DNA from: Lactobacillus isalae
Lineage (GTDB): Bacteria > Bacillota > Bacilli > Lactobacillales > Lactobacillaceae
Assembly (NCBI RefSeq): GCF_947539375.1
Contig: NZ_OX443569.1
Span: forward strand, 1,984,001 to 2,048,000
Direction of reading: 5' to 3'
DNA length: 64,000 bases
Shown: positions 22,640 through 60,259 of the stretch, piece after piece
Layout of the letters: every line of letters begins with the position of its first letter
How positions within the stretch are numbered: the stretch's first letter is position 1
Notes under the pieces: model-generated
Databases searched by the model: none
What the model was told of the DNA's origin: nothing
Seen by the model: the letters and a program-made list of their open reading frames with translations, nothing else
Program-made: the position numbers and the translations under genes

Positions 22640-22818
22640 AAAAAAGACTTCTTCTACCCGTGAATTAGGGTAAAAGAAGTCTATTGCAGTGCTACTTATG
22701 ACATCGATTACCTATAGTCCAGAATTAATTGGTTCCGGGTAGAAACTGTCGACCTTATTACGACGATATATAGATATTTTGATATTTAGAGTGTAGCAGA
22801 ATCATTTTCCGAACACAA
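22640..22818 (-). promoter_or_regulatory. guanine riboswitch with promoter and terminator for xpt-pbuX
   Basis: On the minus strand: promoter TTGTGT (22818-22813), 17 bases, TACACT (22795-22790). The aptamer spans about 22776-22710, with J2/3 core GTTTCTACC and J3/1 GGACTATA, where the C of GACTAT specifies guanine rather than adenine. P1 arms tatctatat / ctataggta can pair. A 15-base terminator stem (agacttcttttaccc / gggtagaagaagtct) and T6 follow at 22682-22640. Ligand binding should end transcription. Confidence 0.92.
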
Positions 22819-29620: not shown

Positions 29621-29713
29621 TTGTTTTTTGTTGTGATGATCGATATACGTCAGCAAAGCTAACATAAAGGTACCAAACAACAGCATCAACGAGATAGCTT
29701 CGTATACGCTCAT
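29597..29713 (-). CDS. type I toxin peptide, copy 1 (Hol_Tox / TxpA-BsrG like)
   Basis: 38 residues: MSVYEAISLMLLFGTF, then a membrane helix to about residue 24 and a charged tail ending in NKKQTKTPLNS. The MSxYEaxxLMxxFGxF start and single helix are those of TxpA, BsrG and the 'putative holin-like toxin' family, which depolarise the membrane or disturb wall synthesis. Compared with copy 2 at 32887, seven codons keep the amino acid by silent changes while neighbouring frames diverge, so this is the translated frame. A longer in-frame extension to 29785 is rejected because copy 2 has a stop there. Expression should be held down by the convergent antisense RNA. Confidence 0.78.
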   Translation of the reverse strand: MSVYEAISLMLLFGTFMLALLTYIDHHNKKQTKTPLNS

Positions 29714-29744
29714 TAGACTGAACCCTTTCCAATTGATGTCGGAC

Positions 29745-29833
29745 CATAGGCCTCGCCTCCAGGAGGAAAAACAGCCACCGATCATAAAACTTTCTGCAGA
29801 TATAATTATAGCGAAAATTTGTTTGCAACAGAA
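29745..29833 (-). promoter_or_regulatory. toxin promoter and structured 5' leader, copy 1
   Basis: On the minus strand, TATAAT at 29810-29805 with a weak -35 17 bases upstream. The leader holds cctcctggagg, which can fold on itself so that the Shine-Dalgarno-like GGAGG is masked. This is a common safety device in type I toxins. Confidence 0.5.
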
Positions 29834-32166: not shown

Positions 32167-32285
32167 TATAATACACGCTAAGGAAAGTAAAAACACAATT
32201 CGGTTGGTAGTCCGAATGTATGATTTATTCATATCAGTAACCTTCCCTCCTAGGATGTCCCTCTTTCCTCTTATTTTTAGGAGGG
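32167..32285 (+). promoter_or_regulatory. yjdF leader RNA (azaaromatic riboswitch candidate), copy A
   Basis: Promoter -10 TATAAT (32167-32172). The RNA begins near aggaaag (32181), which can pair with ctttcct (32263-32269) to close the motif. Inside are a ttcggttggtagtccgaa hairpin and the block aaccttcc...cctaggatgtccctc. The ribosome site aggaggg (32279-32285) can be masked by the upstream cctc/ccctc. Leaders of this kind before DUF2992 genes are the yjdF motif; assignment rests on gene context and layout. Confidence 0.7.
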
Positions 32286-32291
32286 TACATA

Positions 32292-32705
32292 GTGATTAAA
32301 GGTGTATTAACTATTATTTTTGATGAACCATTCTACAAAGCAATTTTTGAGCGATTCGATGGTACTCAGTATAAAGTGGCTCAAGTTAATATGGGAACTT
32401 CATTGCCAACGATGCCAAAAATAATTAACTTGGTGAATGAGCATTATTCTGACTTACGATTTAGCAAATCAACTCTAGATCAGGAAGTAATGCATCATAT
32501 TAACCCCAAAAGAGCTCAAAGATTAGCGCATAAAGAAGTTCGGGAACGTGGAATTGGTACTAAAGCTCAACAAGCTTTAAAAAAGCAATTTGAGAAATCG
32601 AAAATAACTAGAAAAAAGATGAATAAAGATAAAAAACGTGAAATGCAAAAAGAGCGCTTTTTACAAAAACAAATTAAACGTCGAAAAAAACATCGAGGTC
32701 ATTAA
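32292..32705 (+). CDS. yjdF: YjdF family protein (DUF2992), intact copy
   Basis: 137 residues from GTG at 32292 (AGGAGGG upstream). N-terminal half IIFDEPFYKAIFERFDGTQYKVAQVNMGTS and NLVNEHYSDLRFS is the DUF2992 core; the last 50 residues are strongly basic (KITRKKMNKDKKREMQKERFLQ..., RRKKHRGH). Biochemical role unknown; its leader class responds to azaaromatic compounds, which suggests a part in toxin or drug handling. The neighbouring TetR/quinone reductase and MFS pump fit that idea. Nearly identical to the beheaded copy at 35791. Confidence 0.88.
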   Translation: MIKGVLTIIFDEPFYKAIFERFDGTQYKVAQVNMGTSLPTMPKIINLVNEHYSDLRFSKSTLDQEVMHHINPKRAQRLAHKEVRERGIGTKAQQALKKQFEKSKITRKKMNKDKKREMQKERFLQKQIKRRKKHRGH

Positions 32706-32890: not shown

Positions 32891-32979
32891 TTTTTGTTGT
32901 GGTTATCGATATATGTTAGCAATGCTAACACAAAAGTACCAAACAACAGCATTAACGAGATAGCCTCGTATACGCTCAT
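32887..32979 (-). CDS. type I toxin peptide, copy 2 (Hol_Tox / TxpA-BsrG like)
   Basis: 30 residues: MSVYEAISLMLLFGTF, helix, tail YIDNHNKK. Too short for routine ORF calling. Differs from copy 1 at two residues (Met/Val, His/Asn) and by an earlier stop. Upstream of its start lies aaagggttcag. A second, stronger ribosome site (GGAGGTGAGG) precedes an overlapping out-of-frame ORF starting ATGGTCCGACATCAA; that frame changes freely between copies and is probably at most a leader. Expected to insert in the membrane when the antisense RNA is lost. Confidence 0.78.
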   Translation of the reverse strand: MSVYEAISLMLLFGTFVLALLTYIDNHNKK

Positions 32980-33009
32980 CTGGCTGAACCCTTTCCATTT
33001 GATGTCGGA

Positions 33010-33093
33010 CCATAGGCCTCACCTCCGGGAGGAAAAACAGCCACCGCTCATAAAACTTTCTGCGGATATACTTATAACGAAAATTTGTTTGCA
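33010..33093 (-). promoter_or_regulatory. toxin promoter and structured 5' leader, copy 2
   Basis: Minus-strand -10 TATAAG at 33076-33071. The leader contains cctcccggagg, able to mask the GGAGG, as in copy 1. Confidence 0.45.
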
Positions 33094-33826: not shown

Positions 33827-33870
33827 ATTTTTAACTGTAAATGACATGGTTAAAACTGGAGGGAAAAACA

Positions 33871-35649
33871 ATGTCAAAGACAAGAAAAATTATTGGCTTT
33901 GTTGGTTTAATACTTGCAATGTTCATGGGAGCACTAGATGCAACCATTGTTAATATCGCTCTGCCTGATATCATGAAAGACCTAAAAACAGGTTTAACGG
34001 ATACTAGTTGGGTAGCAACAATTTATGTTTTGGCAATGGCAGCATTTATTATTACTGCTTCTAAGTTAGCAGATATTTGGGGTCGAAAGAAGGTCATGTT
34101 AATAGGAGTTGTTCTATTTGGTGGTTTCTCTTTCGCCTGTATGACAGCTAATTCATTGAATCTATTAATTATTTACCGTTTCTTTCAAGGAATCGGCGGT
34201 GCAATTTTAACCCCAATTGTTTTACCAATGGGTATTGAACTATTTGGTAAAGAGAATACGAGTAAGATTACTGCGTTAATGGGAGCTTTTAGCGCCTTAG
34301 CTGCAGCTGGCGGTCCTGCTATTGGCGGTTTTATTATTAATTATGAAAGTTACCATTGGATCTTTGGGATTAATGTTCCGATTGCGATTGTTGCTTTCTT
34401 AATGATCTTAATTGGAACAAATGAATCATATGATGAGACAATCAGTAAATCTATTGATTGGTTAGGTGTAATCTTTTTAACTGCATTTATGGGCTCTCTA
34501 TGCTTTGGCTTGCTAGAAGGTAAAGAATATGGCTGGACTTCAAATATCATTGTAAGTTGCTTTATTGGTAGTCTGATCAGTTTGATTTTATTTATCTTAG
34601 TTGAAGCTAAAGTTAAATCACCTGTTGTTAATTTGAGTTTATTTAAAGAAAAGACATTTTCATCATCTTGCATTATTTATATGGTCTTTGGTTTTGCTAT
34701 TATTGGACCATCCTTGATTTTGAATTATTTCTTACAAAACGTGAAGAATTATTCTGCATTACATTCCGCTTATTTAATTATTCCAGCATCATTGGCAATT
34801 GCAGTAGGGATGCCTTTAGCTACTAAAATGTATAAGACTGTTAGTTCTAAGATGTTAATTGGAATTGGCTTAGTCATTACTGCTGGTGGTTTGGCTATGC
34901 TGGGTATGATTAAAATCAATACTAACCAGGATATAATTGTTAGTTGTAATATTATCATTGGTATAGGACTTGGCTTTACGGCTATTGCTTTGACATCATC
35001 AGTTAAGTTTTTACCTGTACAAAAAACGGGTATTGGTTCAGGAGTAGTCAATGCAGCTAGATATGTTGGTCAAGCAGTAGGGATGGCTTTATTAGTTACT
35101 CTACTTAATAACAATGTTGTGAATGCAAAAGATAGTATTAGGGATGTTGCATACACTCAAATTAGAGAAAAGAATCTTTCTCCTGAGGTTAAAAAAGTGG
35201 CTCGTGAACAAATTAAGATTGTTTTTAAGAATTCTAAAAATGATAACAAGATCAGCAGCAAGCAAAAACAAATGAAAGCTAAGATTAAGAAGGCTGCTAA
35301 AAAGACGATTGATTTACCTTTACCTAAAGCAGGAACAACCTACAGAAAACTATATTCAGCTAATAACAAGTTGAATAGTGGTACTAAGAAATTAGGAGCA
35401 CTGCCACTTCCACAATTAAAACAAGATGTGCAGCTTTTAAGTAAGGGACGTCAAAAGATGGGAACGGCCATTAAATTACTAGCACAAAAGCAGCAATTAG
35501 TTTCTGCGTTAGATAAAATTAAATCTAAGAAGAACAGTGAGCTGGCAAATGCTTTTGCAAAGGTATTTAATCTCACTAGTCTCTTAACGATTATTTGGCT
35601 ACCTTTATGTTGGCTGACTGATCGAAAAGAGGATATTGAATATTGCTAA
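33871..35649 (+). CDS. MFS multidrug efflux transporter (DHA2, EmrB/QacA type)
   Basis: 592 residues with 14 membrane segments. Motifs: LDATIVNIALPDI (motif D1 in helix 1), ADIWGRKKVMLIG (motif A), QGIGGAILTPIVLPMG (motif B), GPAIGGFI (motif C). A long lysine-rich, likely extracytoplasmic loop of about 130 residues lies before the last helix (NVVNAKDSIRD... to ...KNSELANAF), as in some lactobacillal EmrB proteins. Start at 33871 is set by GGAGGG. Exports toxic amphiphiles by proton exchange; regulated by the divergent TetR gene. Confidence 0.9.
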   Translation: MSKTRKIIGFVGLILAMFMGALDATIVNIALPDIMKDLKTGLTDTSWVATIYVLAMAAFIITASKLADIWGRKKVMLIGVVLFGGFSFACMTANSLNLLIIYRFFQGIGGAILTPIVLPMGIELFGKENTSKITALMGAFSALAAAGGPAIGGFIINYESYHWIFGINVPIAIVAFLMILIGTNESYDETISKSIDWLGVIFLTAFMGSLCFGLLEGKEYGWTSNIIVSCFIGSLISLILFILVEAKVKSPVVNLSLFKEKTFSSSCIIYMVFGFAIIGPSLILNYFLQNVKNYSALHSAYLIIPASLAIAVGMPLATKMYKTVSSKMLIGIGLVITAGGLAMLGMIKINTNQDIIVSCNIIIGIGLGFTAIALTSSVKFLPVQKTGIGSGVVNAARYVGQAVGMALLVTLLNNNVVNAKDSIRDVAYTQIREKNLSPEVKKVAREQIKIVFKNSKNDNKISSKQKQMKAKIKKAAKKTIDLPLPKAGTTYRKLYSANNKLNSGTKKLGALPLPQLKQDVQLLSKGRQKMGTAIKLLAQKQQLVSALDKIKSKKNSELANAFAKVFNLTSLLTIIWLPLCWLTDRKEDIEYC

Positions 35650-35683: not shown

Positions 35684-35790
35684 TATAATTTCCTCTAAGG
35701 AAAGTAAAAACACGATTCGGTTGGTAGTCCGAATATATAATCATTAACTTTATATCAGTAACCTTCCTCCTAGGATGTCCCTCTTTCCTC
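35684..35790 (+). promoter_or_regulatory. yjdF leader RNA, copy B, cut before its ribosome site
   Basis: Promoter TATAAT (35684-35689), then the same leader as at 32179 from aggaaag to ctttcctc. Loop regions differ in a few bases. The copy stops at 35790: the segment holding the ribosome site, start codon and first codons is missing, so the leader no longer controls translation of a normal start. Confidence 0.7.
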
Positions 35791-36156
35791 GCAATTTTTG
35801 AGCGATTCGATGGTACTCAGTATAAAGTGGCTCAAGTTAATATGGGAACTTCATTGCCAACGATACCAAAAATAATTAACTTGGTGAATGAGCATTATTC
35901 TGACTTACGATTTAGCAAATCAACTCTAGATCAGGAAGTAATGCATCATATTAACCCCAAAAGAGCTCAAAGATTAGCGCATAAAGAAGTTCGGGAACGT
36001 GGAATTGGTACTAAAGCTCAACAAGCTTTAAAAAAGCAATTTGAGAAATCGAAAATAACTAGAAAAAAGATGAATAAAGATAAAAAACGTGAAATGCAAA
36101 AAGAGCGCTTTTTACAAAAACAAATTAAACGTCGAAAAAAACATCGAGGTCATTAA
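35791..36156 (+). pseudogene. yjdF: yjdF, 5'-deleted copy
   Basis: Matches 32340-32705 almost base for base (one difference changes Met to Ile in SLPT-PKI). Relative to copy A, 69 bases (32271-32339) are deleted, removing the ribosome site, GTG start and first 16 codons. The remaining frame is open and could start at GTG 35827, but no ribosome site is placed for it. High identity means a recent duplication. Most likely non-functional. Confidence 0.82.
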
Positions 36157-54669: not shown

Positions 54670-55134
54670 ATGAGACTTGATACATTAACATATACTTATC
54701 ATTATAAGGCTCCCAAAAGTAAGTTATATCAGACTTTGATGGAGACACAACTTCAATATTTTAAAGCACATAATAAAAAGATACAGCAGCTTCATGAAGG
54801 AGACCGGATAACTACTAATCTAAAGACTAAGTTACAGAAACTAGATTCTGTGACTACAATGGAAATTAGTAAAATTGTTCCTGAGAAATTTTTTCAATTA
54901 GTTACCCAGCAACCTGATAACCATAATATTACTCAAACTTTTGAATTTAGAAGAGATAAAGCAGGAAAAGAAGAACTAATATATTCAGAAAAAACGCAGT
55001 TAAACAATGCAAGAGGATATAGTTTCTTTTTCTTAACAGCTGTTTTATATAAGTACTTCTATAATCGTGGGATGAAGAAAAAGATGCAATATTTAGATGA
55101 TTTAGCTCTTGGTAAGGTTGAGACAAATGATTGA
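54670..55134 (+). CDS. DUF3284 domain protein
   Basis: 154 residues, soluble alpha/beta fold (LDTLTYTYHYKAPKSKLYQTLM... EISKIVPEKFFQLVTQQ...). DUF3284 genes are frequent companions of Lac/Cel-type PTS permeases in lactobacilli; function unknown. Its end overlaps the alpha-galactosidase start (ATGATTGA), a sign of translational coupling. Confidence 0.8.
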   Translation: MRLDTLTYTYHYKAPKSKLYQTLMETQLQYFKAHNKKIQQLHEGDRITTNLKTKLQKLDSVTTMEISKIVPEKFFQLVTQQPDNHNITQTFEFRRDKAGKEELIYSEKTQLNNARGYSFFFLTAVLYKYFYNRGMKKKMQYLDDLALGKVETND

Positions 55135-57358
55135 TGTAATTGATAATAAATACTTTTATTTGCATAACAAGGAAGTTTCTTACTTATTTGACTTATTACC
55201 TAACCAGCAATTAGAGCATTTATATTATGGCGAAGATTTAGGTGAGTTATCTGGTGAAGATTTAGACTATATATCCCTTCACCCAAATAAAGCTTCGGGA
55301 ACAGTAAAATATTCAAAAAAAATAAAAAACTTTACACTAGCTGATCGAATGCAGGAGTTTCCAACATACGGTACAAGCGACTTTCGTGAAGGCGCCATAA
55401 GTATTGAATACCAAGATGAGTATTTATATCCTGATTTTAAATATGATCATTTTAAAATCACAACTGGAAAGCGAAGAAGTTTAGATTTTCCCGCTTCATA
55501 TGGAAAGGATAGCGAAAATCTAACTATCTATTTAATCGATAGTGAGCGGCAATTAGAATTGCAACTATCTTATAGTATTTTCGAAAATTTGTCTGCGATA
55601 GTACGTAAGGCAACTATTATTAATCGAAGTAAGCGAGATATTAAAATCACAAACTTGCAAAGTGCAGTTCTTGACTTACCAAGTGATAATTATGACTTTC
55701 TTCAGCTGTCTGGTGCCTGGATAAAAGAAAGGCATATAGTGCGTCGACCTTTAACGCAAGGTATCGCGAAAGCTGAATCTCTTCGGGGAGCGTCAAGTCA
55801 TCAGGAGAATCCCTTCATTGCTCTTGTGGATAAAGATGTAACAAATGATAATGGAAATATTTACGCTAGTAATTTGATTTATTCTGGTAATTTTATCAGT
55901 CAGGTAGAGGTTGATGAATGGGGACAAAGTCGCTTGATGACAGGAATTAATCCTGCGACCTTTACTTGGAAATTGAGCCAAAATCAAGTGTTTTCTACAC
56001 CAGAAGCTGTCTTATTTTACAGTAATCAAGGTTTTAATGGCTTAATGAAACAGACCCATAATTTTGTTAAAAAGCATATTATTGATCAAAAATGGCAAAA
56101 GCAAGATCGACCGATTGTGGTTAATAATTGGGAAGCAACTTATTTTGATTTTAATGAAGCTAAATTACTGAATCTTGCCAAAGAAGCTAAAAATCTTGGG
56201 ATTGAGTGTTTTGTTCTTGATGATGGATGGTTTGGCACACGGAATAGCGATAATAGTTCATTAGGGAATTGGACTGTGGATAAGAAAAAGTTTCCTCGAG
56301 GATTAGATCATTTTAGTACACAGGTGCATAAGCTGGGGATGAAATTTGGGTTATGGTTTGAACCAGAAATGGTTTCAGCAGATACTGACTTGTACAAATT
56401 CCATCCCGATTGGGTCGTTCGACATCCTTATGGTCGCTTCTCAGTAGGGAGAAGTCAGTATGTACTGGATTTTGCTAACCCAGAAGTCATTAACAATATC
56501 TATAATCAGATGGAAAAGGTAATTGAAAAAGCTCATGTTGACTATATTAAATGGGATATGAATCGAAATATTACTGAAGCCTATTCCCCCTACTTAAAGA
56601 AAATCGGCCTTGGTCAGGGTGAATTTTTCCACAGATATATTCAAGGAGTTTATAAGTTATATGCAAAGTTATTAACACGTTTTCCAAACTTGTTGATAGA
56701 AGGCTGCGCTAGCGGTGGTGGTCGTTTTGATTTAGGTATTTTATTTTATAGTCCGCAAATTTGGCCAAGTGATGATAGTGATGCAGTTGAAAGACTAGAT
56801 ATTATGTCGGGAACTTTACTTGCGTACCCATTATCTACTTTTAGTAATCATGTTTCACAGGTTCCAAACGATCAGGTAAAAAGAATAACAAGTTTGAAGT
56901 TTAGGCAGAATCTTGATTGTTTTGGTCCTTTAGGATATGAATTAGATTTAAATAAATTATCGTTAGAAGAAAAGATTCAAATTAAAGACGAGATAAAATG
57001 GTATAAGAAAAACCGTAAGCTACTAGTTAACGGCAATTTCGATCAATTGTTGAAATTTGATCCTTCTCAAAACACTTATGCATGGAGTGTAAGCGACAAT
57101 AATAGCCAAATTATTGGATTCTATCGTAAACTTGCGCGTCCTAATGAAACTTTAGATCAATATCTCCCTCTTAAACATTTAAAATTTCAGCAGCAATATT
57201 TGATTAATCAAACGCAAATAGTATCAGGCAAAGTTTTACAGAGCTTTGGATTACGAGAACCATATCAATTCAATGCTTCAAATCCTAATACGGCACAAGT
57301 TAGTGGCGACTTTCAATCTTATCTTTATCAAATAAAGGCTATTGACAGAAAAAACTAA
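55127..57358 (+). CDS. alpha-galactosidase (GH36)
   Basis: 743 residues, cytosolic. Hydrolyses terminal alpha-galactose from melibiose, raffinose or stachyose. Nucleophile Asp477 in YIKWDMNRN, acid/base Asp549 in WPSDDSDAVERL; N-terminal beta-sandwich and C-terminal sheet domain frame the barrel. ATG at 55127 overlaps the upstream stop; a longer open frame is rejected. A product of the PTS would enter phosphorylated, which GH36 enzymes do not normally accept; see findings. The gene's 3' end contains the -35 of the next promoter. Confidence 0.95.
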   Translation: MIDVIDNKYFYLHNKEVSYLFDLLPNQQLEHLYYGEDLGELSGEDLDYISLHPNKASGTVKYSKKIKNFTLADRMQEFPTYGTSDFREGAISIEYQDEYLYPDFKYDHFKITTGKRRSLDFPASYGKDSENLTIYLIDSERQLELQLSYSIFENLSAIVRKATIINRSKRDIKITNLQSAVLDLPSDNYDFLQLSGAWIKERHIVRRPLTQGIAKAESLRGASSHQENPFIALVDKDVTNDNGNIYASNLIYSGNFISQVEVDEWGQSRLMTGINPATFTWKLSQNQVFSTPEAVLFYSNQGFNGLMKQTHNFVKKHIIDQKWQKQDRPIVVNNWEATYFDFNEAKLLNLAKEAKNLGIECFVLDDGWFGTRNSDNSSLGNWTVDKKKFPRGLDHFSTQVHKLGMKFGLWFEPEMVSADTDLYKFHPDWVVRHPYGRFSVGRSQYVLDFANPEVINNIYNQMEKVIEKAHVDYIKWDMNRNITEAYSPYLKKIGLGQGEFFHRYIQGVYKLYAKLLTRFPNLLIEGCASGGGRFDLGILFYSPQIWPSDDSDAVERLDIMSGTLLAYPLSTFSNHVSQVPNDQVKRITSLKFRQNLDCFGPLGYELDLNKLSLEEKIQIKDEIKWYKKNRKLLVNGNFDQLLKFDPSQNTYAWSVSDNNSQIIGFYRKLARPNETLDQYLPLKHLKFQQQYLINQTQIVSGKVLQSFGLREPYQFNASNPNTAQVSGDFQSYLYQIKAIDRKN

Positions 57359-57370
57359 GCCCATTACAAT
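57342..57370 (+). promoter_or_regulatory. strong promoter inside the 3' end of the alpha-galactosidase gene
   Basis: TTGACA (57342-57347), exactly 17 bases, TACAAT (57365-57370). Near-consensus. Transcription start expected near 57377, giving a 235-base leader before the ABC substrate-binding gene. Confidence 0.85.
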
Positions 57371-57401
57371 ATAATTAAATTTTTTGAGGAGTACTTAATT
57401 A

Positions 57402-57451
57402 TGAATACACAAGCTAAGTTTATTAAGAATAATCGTTGGCAAGGCCAGTAA
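57402..57451 (+). CDS. leader peptide of the trp-type ABC transporter operon
   Basis: Sixteen codons, MNTQAKFIKNNRWQGQ, with ribosome site GAGGAG and a stop at 57449. Too short for routine ORF calling. It contains a single Trp codon (13) four positions from the stop, directly before the first leader hairpin. The layout is that of a ribosome-sensed attenuator. Translation is not proven. Confidence 0.55.
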
Positions 57452-57452
57452 A

Positions 57453-57601
57453 TCAGGTTGTTAGCTAGATACAACCTGAAGAATTCAGATTGTATCTGTG
57501 CTGGCTGTGTATTTATTGTGGTCTGCATGGAACAACATGCAGACCTTTTCTTTTATAATCAAAGCAATAGGGATCTGCATGGAGTCAGATTCCTATTTTT
57601 T
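57453..57601 (+). promoter_or_regulatory. leader with competing hairpins and two terminators
   Basis: Hairpin 1: tcaggttgt (57453) / acaacctga (57479), starting 1 base after the leader stop codon. Alternative: agatacaa (57467) / ttgtatct (57497), which shares bases with hairpin 1. Terminator 1: ggtctgcatg / catgcagacc (57520-57545) with T4CT4. Terminator 2: ataggg-atctg / cagattcctat (57566-57594) with T7. Both terminators share the word tctgcatgga. The mutually exclusive folds imply regulated readthrough. Confidence 0.7.
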
Positions 57602-57613
57602 TGGAGAAAAATT

Positions 57614-58606
57614 ATGAAAAGAATGTATGGACTAATAGTAATTTTAATAGCTTTTTTGACAGTAGCTTTTTTTGGAGAAAATCATCAGCAAGAAGCTAAT
57701 AAAAAAATTCCACAAGTTGGCGTTTTGACCTTAATGCATCACCCAGCTCTTGACGAAATATATCGAGGCTTCAAGGCAGAATTAAAATCGTCTGGTTATG
57801 TGAATGGGAAGAATGTTCGAATTGATTATCAAAATGCTAATAATGACCAAAGTAATTTGCGCACCATGGCTACGAGATTAACTGATGAGCAATCTGATGT
57901 ACTGGTTGGGATTACTACACCTGCTGCACAAGCTTTAGCAAATACCACTAGTAAAACGCCTATTGTTTTAGGTGCAGTAACAGATCCGAAGGCGAGTGGC
58001 TTAATAAAAAATCTAAGACATCCTGAAGCGAATATAACCGGTGTGTCAGATGCAGCTCCCGTTAGTCAGCAATTAGATTTAATCAAAGAATTTATGCCAA
58101 ATCTAAAGACTTTAGGAGTAATTTATACTTCAAGTGATTCTTCTGCTGTTAGTGGTTTTCATGAAATTGAACGTGAATGTAAAAGAAGACAGATAAATTT
58201 AAAGTCTTTCTCAATAGCAAACAGCAATGATCTTAATCAGGTATCAGAGCAAATGTTTAGTCAGGTAGATGCGGTAATTGTGCCAACTGATAACACAATT
58301 GCAGGGGCAATGGAGACTTTAGTTAAAAATGGAAATGCGGCTAAAAAGCCTATTTTTCCAGCTACTGCAACTATGGTTAAGCAAGGAGGCCTTGCAACGT
58401 ATAGTGTTAACCAGTATAAGCTAGGAAAGATGACTGGAAAAATGACCGTTGCTCTTTTAAAAGGAAAAAAGGTCAGTTCATTGCCTATAGAGAGAGTTAA
58501 AAAAGGAGAACCTGTAATTAACTTAAAAGAAGCAAAAGAACTGAATTTACAAGTACCGCAAAAGTTCTTGAGAGAGTGTCAGAGAAATGGAGTTGTATAT
58601 AGATGA
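57614..58606 (+). CDS. trpX: ABC transporter substrate-binding protein (TrpX-like, PF04392)
   Basis: 330 residues. N-terminal helix (MKRMYGLIVILIAFLTVAFFG) is a signal anchor or lipoprotein-like signal without a clear lipobox Cys. The mature protein has the pattern of the PF04392 family: KIPQVGVLTLMHHPALDEIYRGFKAEL, VGITTPAAQAL, VDAVIVPTDNTIAGAMETLV, ATYSVNQYKLGKM. In streptococci and lactococci this family and its YZ partners import tryptophan/tyrosine. Start at 57614 (GGAGAAAAATT); the 52 codons upstream overlap terminator 2 and are rejected. Confidence 0.82.
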   Translation: MKRMYGLIVILIAFLTVAFFGENHQQEANKKIPQVGVLTLMHHPALDEIYRGFKAELKSSGYVNGKNVRIDYQNANNDQSNLRTMATRLTDEQSDVLVGITTPAAQALANTTSKTPIVLGAVTDPKASGLIKNLRHPEANITGVSDAAPVSQQLDLIKEFMPNLKTLGVIYTSSDSSAVSGFHEIERECKRRQINLKSFSIANSNDLNQVSEQMFSQVDAVIVPTDNTIAGAMETLVKNGNAAKKPIFPATATMVKQGGLATYSVNQYKLGKMTGKMTVALLKGKKVSSLPIERVKKGEPVINLKEAKELNLQVPQKFLRECQRNGVVYR

Positions 58607-59502
58607 ATTTAATCGTATCTGCAATTGGGCAAGGATTATTATGGGCTTTGCTTGGTTTAGGACTATATTTAATATTTAGAATTTTAAATTTCGCTGATAT
58701 GACAGTTGAGGGAACATTTCCATTGGGAGCAGCAGTTGCTGTAGCCAATCTTGCTCATGGAATTTCGCCATATTTAGCTACTTTCTTAGCACTAATTGCT
58801 GGAATGGCGGCAGGACTAGTGACTGGCTTGCTTTATACTAAGGGAAAGATTCCAATTTTACTTGCCGGAATTTTAACTATGACTGCAATCTATTCCATTA
58901 ATTTACGAATTATGGGTGGTTCTAATATTTCGTTAATTGGTAAAAAGACGCTACTTAATAATGAGTTTTTAAAATCTCTACCCCAATATTTCAATAGTGT
59001 GGTTTTAGGAATTATAGTTGTAGCAATTATTACGATAATTTTAGTTTTCTTTTTAAATACAGACTTTGGTCAAGCTTTTATTGCTACTGGTGATAATCCT
59101 AAGATGGCTAAATCATTAGGAATTCATACGGATTCAATGGTAATTATTGGGTTAATGCTCTCAAATGGAATCGTAGCTTTATGCGGAGCTTTGATTGCAC
59201 AAAATAATGGTTATGCAGATATCAACATGGGAATTGGAACTATTGTTATTGCGTTAGCTTCAATAATTATTGGTGAGGTAGCATTTGGTGAATTAACGCT
59301 AAATCAAAGACTAGTGGCTGTGACGTTAGGAAGTATTATTTATCGCTTGATTTTATTAGCAGTCTTACAATTAGGATTTTCAGCTAATGACTTGAATTTA
59401 ATTTCTTCTATTGTTTTGGCTATCTGCATGATGCTACCGCAATTAGAAAAAATTGTACATTTGAAAAAGCCGATAGAAAGAGGTGTGAAGAAGCATGACT
59501 AA
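58603..59502 (+). CDS. trpY: ABC transporter permease (TrpY-like)
   Basis: 299 residues, eight to ten membrane helices, BPD_transp_2 type (LYLIFRILNFADMTVEGTFPLGAAVA, ILTMTAIYSINLRIMGG, GDNPKMAKSLGI). ATGA overlap with trpX and 8-base overlap with the ATPase make one translationally coupled operon. Substrate assigned as tryptophan only from the family and leader. Confidence 0.85.
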   Translation: MNLIVSAIGQGLLWALLGLGLYLIFRILNFADMTVEGTFPLGAAVAVANLAHGISPYLATFLALIAGMAAGLVTGLLYTKGKIPILLAGILTMTAIYSINLRIMGGSNISLIGKKTLLNNEFLKSLPQYFNSVVLGIIVVAIITIILVFFLNTDFGQAFIATGDNPKMAKSLGIHTDSMVIIGLMLSNGIVALCGALIAQNNGYADINMGIGTIVIALASIIIGEVAFGELTLNQRLVAVTLGSIIYRLILLAVLQLGFSANDLNLISSIVLAICMMLPQLEKIVHLKKPIERGVKKHD

Positions 59503-60259
59503 GCCAATTTTAGAATTAAGAAATGTTAAAACTACTGTTAAGACGGCTGATGGTGAAATTGTTCCTATTTTGAAAGGGATTAATCTAGAAATTAGGGCTG
59601 GTGATTTTATTACAATTATTGGAACTAATGGTGCGGGCAAGTCTACACTCTTTAATACTATTGCAGGGAGTTTAAGACCTGATAGTGGAACGATTTTTCA
59701 TAATGGACAAGACATTACTAAGATGAGTGAAGAAAAACGGACGCAATTTATTGGACGCGTCTTCCAGGATCCTAAGATGGGAACCGCGCCAAGAATGACA
59801 GTAGCAGAAAATCTTCTGTTAGCGACTAAGAGAGGTAAACGAAGATTTTTAAAAATCAGAAAACTCAAACAAAATTTACCACGTTTTAAAAAGCTAGCAT
59901 CAGTTATGAACAATGGCTTAGAGAATCGCTTAAACACCTTTGTAGAGGGACTATCAGGTGGTCAAAGACAAGCTTTAAGCTTTTTAATGGCAACAATTGA
60001 GAAACCTGACATTTTATTGCTAGATGAACATACTGCTGCTTTAGATCCCCACACTAGTGAAAACTTATTATCGGTAACGGATAAGCAAATTAAAGAAAAT
60101 AAGTTGACTGCTTTGATGATTACGCACCATATGGAAGATGCTTTAAAATATGGAAATCGACTTTTAGTTTTAAAAGATGGAAAAGTTAAGGCAGATATTG
60201 ATGAAGAAAAGAAGAAAAATTTAAAAGTAAGTGATCTTTATAACTACTTTGAAGATTAA
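59495..60259 (+). CDS. trpZ: ABC transporter ATPase (TrpZ-like)
   Basis: 254 residues. Walker A GTNGAGKST (43-51), Q-loop RVFQDPKMG, signature LSGGQRQAL, Walker B ILLLDEHTAALDP, switch ITHHMEDA. The Q-loop followed by MGTAPRMTVAENLLLA is typical of the TrpZ/YtlC-like group. GGTGTGAAGAAG precedes the start inside trpY. Confidence 0.88.
   Translation: MTKPILELRNVKTTVKTADGEIVPILKGINLEIRAGDFITIIGTNGAGKSTLFNTIAGSLRPDSGTIFHNGQDITKMSEEKRTQFIGRVFQDPKMGTAPRMTVAENLLLATKRGKRRFLKIRKLKQNLPRFKKLASVMNNGLENRLNTFVEGLSGGQRQALSFLMATIEKPDILLLDEHTAALDPHTSENLLSVTDKQIKENKLTALMITHHMEDALKYGNRLLVLKDGKVKADIDEEKKKNLKVSDLYNYFED

Follow-up and report, generated by a model that had tools for sequence, protein, structure and literature searches.

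A probable ribosome-mediated transcription attenuator before trpXYZ in Lactobacillus isalae and its relatives with exchanged sensor codons

Leader ORF and covarying folds before trpXYZ

We analysed a 64,000-nucleotide stretch of the Lactobacillus isalae genome (assembly GCF_947539375.1, contig NZ_OX443569.1, positions 1,984,001 to 2,048,000; hereafter the window, whose own coordinates are used throughout), in which a melibiase-family gene is followed by a leader and then by three genes that encode an ATP-binding cassette (ABC) importer. Very probably this leader is a ribosome-mediated transcription attenuator for TrpXYZ, its RNA grouping with the Rfam family RF04312 and with the codon-swapped RF02863, and its sensor codons matching the controlled gene. 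An earlier note on this DNA had proposed a Trp-codon attenuator before a TrpXYZ-type importer, which is supported by the conservation of an open reading frame (ORF) with its Trp codon and by exclusive, covarying folds.

The leader ORF, MNTQAKFIKNNRWQGQ-stop, spans 16 codons at 57401-57451 including the stop, on the forward strand like all elements of the leader, and it agrees with the earlier description of a good ribosome site (GAGGAG) and one Trp codon near the end, at 57437-57439. TrpX scored above the NF041285 cut-off in 50 of the 75 genomes of the genus, with one locus per genome examined (a second copy in G070 was left out), and a short Trp-containing ORF behind a ribosome site was found at all 50 loci, using genus and family leader searches that required a Trp, in the genus search one near the ORF end. 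The residue after Trp is Gln in 49 of these leaders and Pro in one (codons CAA and CCT, respectively), and the stop is the third codon after Trp in one leader, the fourth in 22, the fifth in 19 and the sixth in 8. We also fetched 40 TrpX loci of the family from outside the genus, spread over 27 genera: a Trp leader was present at 38, three of these having a weak ribosome site. The single Trp that the earlier note had emphasized holds within the genus, where 46 of the 50 leaders have one and four have two, but not beyond it, since leaders of other families mostly read W-Q-x-W; the single Trp of the window leader therefore looks, from this comparison of leaders, like a reduced form.

The final codons of the ORF double as a strand of RNA structure, a feature that goes beyond the earlier note. 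This strand, element 1 (GGCCAGTA, 57443-57450), pairs with element 5 (GTGCTGGCT, 57498-57506), the antiterminator strand, which can pair instead with the 5' arm of the first terminator, T1 (57520-57545), while element 2 (TCAGGTTGT, 57453-57461) pairs with element 3 (AGATACAACCTGA, 57467-57479), which can pair instead with element 4 (TCAGATTGTATCT, 57485-57497) to form helix 3:4, the P1 helix of RF04312. Since both hairpins use the strand 57471-57479, they are mutually exclusive, as had been proposed for the two hairpins following the leader stop. The Trp codon keeps its register to the 1:5 helix: the 45 leaders counted (five delbrueckii-type leaders were omitted) had 284 of their 315 cells paired, compared with 7-43% when the strands were slid; even in the early-stop leader of G008, in which the stop replaces the CAG of element 1, the helix is kept through a G-U pair. 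The leader thus has two hallmarks of an attenuator, a conserved translatable ORF with codons for the regulated amino acid and exclusive folds of which one leads to a terminator.

Covariation was counted in two alignments, A1 with 15 distinct leaders (those of the window's type and that of G009) and A2 with 18 of the 19 distinct WQFQH-type leaders (L049 was dropped), each time against 500 shuffles that ignore relatedness among the leaders. For the combined helices 1:5 and 2:3, we found 8 cells changed on both sides in A1 and 12 in A2, values reached by 1 and 0 of the 500 shuffles, respectively, and for helix 3:4 there were 3 such cells in A1 and 8 in A2, which no shuffle reached in either alignment. 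Pairs showing a double change in A2 numbered four for 1:5 with 2:3 (16/500 shuffles reach this) and three for 3:4 (12/500). These helices pair in 93-98% of cells, compared with 12-51% when slid, and element 3 varies jointly with element 2 and with element 4, which matches what two exclusive folds require. The earlier note had named conservation of the Trp and covariation of both folds across lactobacilli as checks, and hairpins conserved without the ORF as the outcome that would speak against it; by double-changed cells both folds covary in A1 and A2, and the ORF and the helices are conserved together.

The antiterminator helix formed by element 5 and the T1 5' arm was paired in 118 of 119 cells of A1 (7/500 shuffles as high), surpassed permuted T1 arms at the 5% level in 28 of 30 distinct pairs and contained an unpaired pyrimidine-pyrimidine position in all 45 leaders counted. 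When element 5 and T1 arms were swapped between groups, own partners were the best on average for the delbrueckii type, the WQFQH type and G009; element 5 of the window's group bound the T1 arms of the WQFQH type and of G009 at least as well as its own, and that of the WQxQxD group bound the T1 arms of the window's group better than its own. Behind T1 lies a second terminator, T2 (57566-57597), the terminator scan having found these two where 0.4 were expected, and the common word that the earlier note had seen in them is present: the T2 5' arm word TCTGCATGG (57574-57582) is complementary to the T1 3' arm (57536-57545). In the window's group all 12 distinct T1-T2 pairs surpassed permuted T2 arms at 5% (mean -13.6 versus -4.6 kcal/mol), the complementarity being kept with differing letters across species, and the one pair of G009 did so as well. 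The word common to T1 and T2 therefore fits a relay from one terminator to the other, mainly in the window's own group.

Sensor codons and controlled genes in RF04312 and RF02863

The window leader has no Rfam match at the gathering threshold. Below that threshold, the best match in a search of 401 bases was to RF04312, the trpB motif, at 57463-57556 on the forward strand, with 48.7 bits and an E-value of 5.7e-6 over the full model (1-107); since this match is full-length and stays below the gathering cut-off of 59, we treat the leader as a relative of RF04312 that is formally under its cut-off, which a leader from another genus, L150, exceeds with 60.2 bits. As in that family, a P1 hairpin and an intrinsic terminator precede an amino-acid transporter gene in the window. 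The trpB motif was described as SRC-39-1 by Narunsky et al. 2024 (PMC11109978), who rated it a strong candidate for a riboswitch and gave it more than 900 members, most of them before an amino-acid-like ABC transporter, and who placed an antiterminator in P1's right shoulder; the term 'leader peptide' does not occur in the main text of that paper, and those of its passages on upstream ORFs available to us concern other motifs. P1 (helix 3:4), the terminator and the kinds of genes (ABC transporter, trpB) are thus alike in RF04312 and in the window, whereas the leader ORF and elements 1 and 2 are absent from the Rfam model, and the paper files the motif as a riboswitch candidate (PMC11109978). 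In the other family, RF02863 ('Enterococcus sRNA 2410'), the consensus consists of the 2:3 hairpin enclosed by the 1:5 helix, and it starts inside a leader ORF; unlike the window leader, RF02863 is filed as a small RNA (sRNA) gene, carries Tyr/Phe sensor codons and stands mostly before TrpX-like paralogs. RF02863 was not among the matches to the window leader up to an E-value of 5, and the leader's own genome gave no match to it at 0.001.

At an E-value of at most 0.001, RF04312 matched 45 of 121 genomes in the family sample (5 over the cut-off), 136 of 246 in the order sample (47), 12 of 250 in the class sample (7) and 5 of 398 in the phylum sample (1), these samples overlapping and having been searched with stricter filters, which lose weak matches. 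Since the loci that the RNA searches supplied are those with the best scores, members with low scores are under-represented. Three weak RF04312 matches from the wide searches (L218, L222 and L223) had no leader with a ribosome site, look like chance and were discarded. As separate observations, the best RF04312 leader, L156 (G118 C1 near 26859; 86.6 bits), is followed not by an amino-acid gene but by an ORF that by eye resembles the reverse transcriptase of a group II intron, and two loci (L186 in G387 and L187 in G326), both from a single genus that belongs to a different family of the order, have W-Q-S-W leaders, whereas the other genomes of that genus shown lack an RF04312 match.

We found that the codons of these leaders follow the genes behind them, in leaders chosen without asking for any residue. 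Of 42 TrpX paralogs of the genus listed at 302-345 bits, 12 were fetched (329-344 bits, below the cut-off), and all 12 are preceded by Tyr or mixed Tyr/Phe leaders such as LNNRYYLSYYR or, at L110, TRSYFSFFR; no leader could be found before two paralogs that are more distant (245 and 268 bits). RF02863 matched 17 loci in 13 of 101 genomes, every one with a Tyr and/or Phe leader, and the next gene, judged by eye, encodes a TrpX-like binding protein in 15 of them, an aminotransferase-like protein at L229 and an unclear product in the remaining one. The two sets overlap in one locus (L227 of the RF02863 set is L111 of the paralogs), and the 12 Tyr/Phe leaders of the genus match RF02863 at 45-70 bits, three of them over its cut-off of 61. 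For RF04312, a leader rule using the ribosome site and stop position only was run on 42 of the 68 loci from the searches (8 more were viewed) and found a Trp leader in 39 of the 42; two had no leader by the rule, one of which, L217, has a Tyr/Phe ORF lacking a good ribosome site.

Leaders were also seen before other kinds of genes. At L216, the remaining one of the 42 loci, four His codons precede a gene that is hisZ-like (200 bits over 300 residues with TIGR00443, whose cut-off is 271.65), a YYWF leader precedes a transketolase-like gene in two genomes, a Phe-rich leader precedes a gene that by eye is symporter-like at L221 (a match from the wide RF04312 search), and Trp leaders precede three trpB loci, trpB having been confirmed by family search. 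A His leader peptide of hisZ/hisS* in bacilli was reported by Naville and Gautheret 2010 (PMC2965389), which likewise concerns leader-peptide attenuation in Firmicutes but, in the part of that report available, for His only. Two places with Tyr/Phe leaders, G122 C1 near 685400 and G125 C41, are matched by both RF04312 and RF02863. A tree was built for 44 binding proteins selected among the available loci (L189, which has no full protein, was left out). The 28 with Trp leaders lie on one side of one branch with 100/100 support (0/500 shuffles as low), and on the Tyr/Phe side two changes have to be assumed for the three Phe-only leaders (23/500 shuffles as low). Because the codons track the genes, RF04312 and RF02863 appear to be a single attenuator chassis in which the sensor codons, for Trp, Tyr, Phe or His, can be exchanged. 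As a further observation, locus L157 (G129 C19) has a WQSWQS leader before a gene that resembles an oligopeptide-binding protein (318 bits with the Opp4A model, cut-off 650), which hints at peptide uptake under the control of Trp.

Proposed switch, calculated folding and competing explanations

When charged tRNA-Trp is scarce, the ribosome would wait with the Trp codon at 57437 in its A site and cover element 1, so that helix 2:3 could form and element 5 would be left free to pair with the T1 5' arm, blocking T1; the freed T1 3' arm would then pair with the T2 5' arm and break T2 too, and trpXYZ would be transcribed. With ample Trp the ribosome would reach the stop and cover elements 1 and 2, helix 3:4 would form and take up part of element 5, and once the ribosome leaves the stop, helix 1:5 would close, T1 and T2 would form and transcription would end. 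Helix 1:5 would form as well if the leader is not translated, which again would give the off state. In this scheme the conservation, the covariation and the match of codons to genes are observed and the fold switching is calculated, whereas stalling, termination and a response to Trp in cells are inferred. In the E. coli trpL leader, a ribosome stalled on Trp codons, two of which lie in tandem, selects the antiterminator over the terminator, and a stalled ribosome choosing the fold is also the proposed working principle of the window leader; the latter differs from trpL in having one Trp codon, an off state made of 1:5 and 3:4, an antiterminator strand that is the right shoulder of P1, and the relay to T2. 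The Rfam Trp leader family was neither among the gathering matches of the window nor among the weak leader matches listed.

To calculate fold switching, we folded the RNA as far as the T1 loop and let a ribosome at the Trp codon shield the bases to at most 12 positions past that codon's first base, the footprint length being a general background value. In equilibrium folding of the 50 genus leaders, the predicted mean number of antiterminator pairs was 0.70 in free RNA, 7.49 with the ribosome at Trp and 4.53 at the stop; the value at Trp exceeded that of free RNA in all 50 leaders and that at the stop in 41. In sequential folding, in which first-formed hairpins are kept, 42 of 50 leaders had more pairs at Trp than at the stop, 33 of them with a margin above one pair, and for the window leader 10.3 pairs were predicted at Trp compared with 6.9 at the stop. 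When the ribosome was moved codon by codon along the window leader, the equilibrium value rose from 0.06 to 2.89 as the Trp codon, not the preceding codon, entered the A site. Eleven Tyr/Phe leaders were also folded (L112, in which no element 5 was found, was omitted), and in 10 of them a ribosome at the second sensor cluster gave more antiterminator than free RNA. The calculations thus speak for a switch, though not for the details of its timing.

Several results weigh against a Trp-codon attenuator of this design. In the calculations, the window leader at equilibrium gave the reverse order, 2.89 pairs at Trp and 6.89 at the stop, and it is one of nine exceptions among the 50, together with G014, G033 and six of the eight WQxQxD-type leaders; as this order was reversed only by the sequential calculation, equilibrium folding alone fails to predict the switch of the window leader. 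Even in sequential folding, the eight WQxQxD-type leaders (10.43 and 10.47) and G009 gave like values at Trp and at the stop, and in the codon scan 28 of 50 leaders, including the WQFQH type as a group, were at half maximum already seven codons upstream, values rose again well past the stop in several groups, that of the window leader itself kept rising beyond the stop, and the Tyr/Phe leaders showed no drop at the stop. On the comparative side, two of the 40 TrpX loci from other genera (L125 and L148) had no leader that we found, pairs with a double change in A1 were no better than shuffles (two for 1:5 with 2:3, 124/500; one for 3:4, 261/500), further pair types were not above shuffles in any of the four counts (both helix sets, both alignments), and the pairing of element 5 with T1 hardly varied in A2 and showed no covariation there. 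T1-T2 complementarity surpassed permuted arms in just 5 of 18 WQFQH-type, 1 of 5 delbrueckii-type and 0 of 5 WQxQxD-type pairs, so we take the relay as a feature of the window's group and claim it for no others. Finally, measured against E. coli, a single Trp codon makes a weak sensor, and the conserved Gln after Trp is not accounted for by the RNA model.

A further reading is a hybrid sensor, a codon-programmable, arrest-assisted attenuator in which the nascent peptide may slow or prime the ribosome so that a single hungry codon suffices; we give this idea a small chance of being right. Besides the Gln that follows Trp in 49 of the 50 genus leaders, 35 of 56 leaders of the Trp, Tyr and Phe types have an L-N motif ahead of the sensor codons, written with six Leu codons and not explained by the RNA folds, and L-N(-N-R) stands just before the sensor in many leaders; against the hybrid sensor, L-N lies within six residues of the Trp in only 10 of the 50 genus Trp leaders.

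Of the explanations that dispense with a waiting ribosome at the sensor codon, a riboswitch, in which the trpB motif RNA would bind Trp or a relative directly and the ORF would be incidental, fares best and is still improbable. A structured RNA does stand before amino-acid genes, and its publication as a strong candidate with the antiterminator in the right shoulder of P1 (PMC11109978) speaks for it; yet the ORF and its ribosome site are conserved, the final ORF codons form a strand of the switch, the sensor codons change with the gene while the fold stays, and the discoverers themselves, in the text available, left a classic attenuator possible (PMC11109978). Within a limited literature collection, this paper was the only one found on the trpB motif as a riboswitch, and a search judged by titles and abstract openings found none on Tyr leaders, on sRNA 2410 or on ribosome-mediated attenuation in Lactobacillaceae.

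Nascent-peptide arrest of the tna type, in which the peptide would sense free Trp and the ribosome would stall at the stop, appears more improbable still. The prevalence of a single Trp, the Gln following it, the L-N motif with its varied Leu codons and the higher equilibrium antiterminator of the window leader at the stop could all be claimed for it. However, arrest peptides of the tnaC type have a fixed spacing between Trp and stop, and in these leaders the stop shifts from the third to the sixth codon after Trp and lies once inside element 1, while the register of Trp to the 1:5 helix stays constant; the suggestion of the earlier note that the ribosome's position at the stop codon may matter, as in tna-type systems, thus found no backing. 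Moreover, Tyr, Phe and His versions exist, equilibrium folding gave less antiterminator at the stop than at Trp in most leaders, and Trp-induced stalling would be expected to raise importer synthesis when Trp is plentiful. A T-box for uncharged tRNA-Trp is suggested by Streptococcus suis, whose trpX is T-box controlled and has Trp as its ligand according to the part of the source available, but has next to no probability here, since RF00230 did not match the window at gathering, was not among the 8 weak matches listed for 57300-57700, and gave no match at gathering in 58 related loci searched, four of the family loci L072-L101 among them, in keeping with the earlier remark that no T-box core is visible.

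Surroundings of the leader and wider meaning

The attenuator would be transcribed from a putative sigma-70-type promoter, TTGACA-17-TACAAT, at 57342-57370 on the forward strand, which has 11 of 12 consensus matches and overlaps the 3' end of the melibiase-family ORF (55109-57358), so that the promoter hidden in the previous gene was recovered. The promoter scan found 5 sites where 6.3 are expected by chance, and for this reason the assignment rests on the near-consensus match and on similar TTGACA boxes seen by eye before Lactobacillus loci. Downstream, all on the forward strand, follow trpX at 57614-58606, encoding the substrate-binding protein of a tryptophan ABC transporter (NF041285, 466 bits, cut-off 390; PF04392), a trpY-like permease gene at 58603-59502 (PF02653) and a trpZ-like gene for an ATP-binding protein at 59495-60259 (PF00005), which confirms the importer as TrpXYZ-like.

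Elsewhere in the window we observed two azaaromatic (yjdF) riboswitches 3.5 kb apart on the forward strand (32177-32278 and 35694-35798), the first directly before an ORF at 32292-32705 that is YjdF-like by eye and the second directly after an exporter-like ORF at 33841-35649. On the reverse strand lie two matches to rli28, a Listeria sRNA family (29642-29820 and 32908-33086; 53.4 and 47.7 bits), and a purine riboswitch (22695-22793; 56.8 bits).

The proposed attenuator offers a testable function for the orphan trpB motif, which had been put forward as a strong candidate for a riboswitch, and unites this motif with an RNA catalogued as an 'sRNA': the two would be different codon settings of a single switch. 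Should the hybrid sensor prove true, it would be a translated counterpart of the T-box. If the codon-sensing attenuator is right, leader codons would label the cargo of uncharacterised importers, Tyr or Phe for the TrpX paralogs, and codon-sensing leader peptides would be a widespread alternative to the T-box in Lactobacillales.

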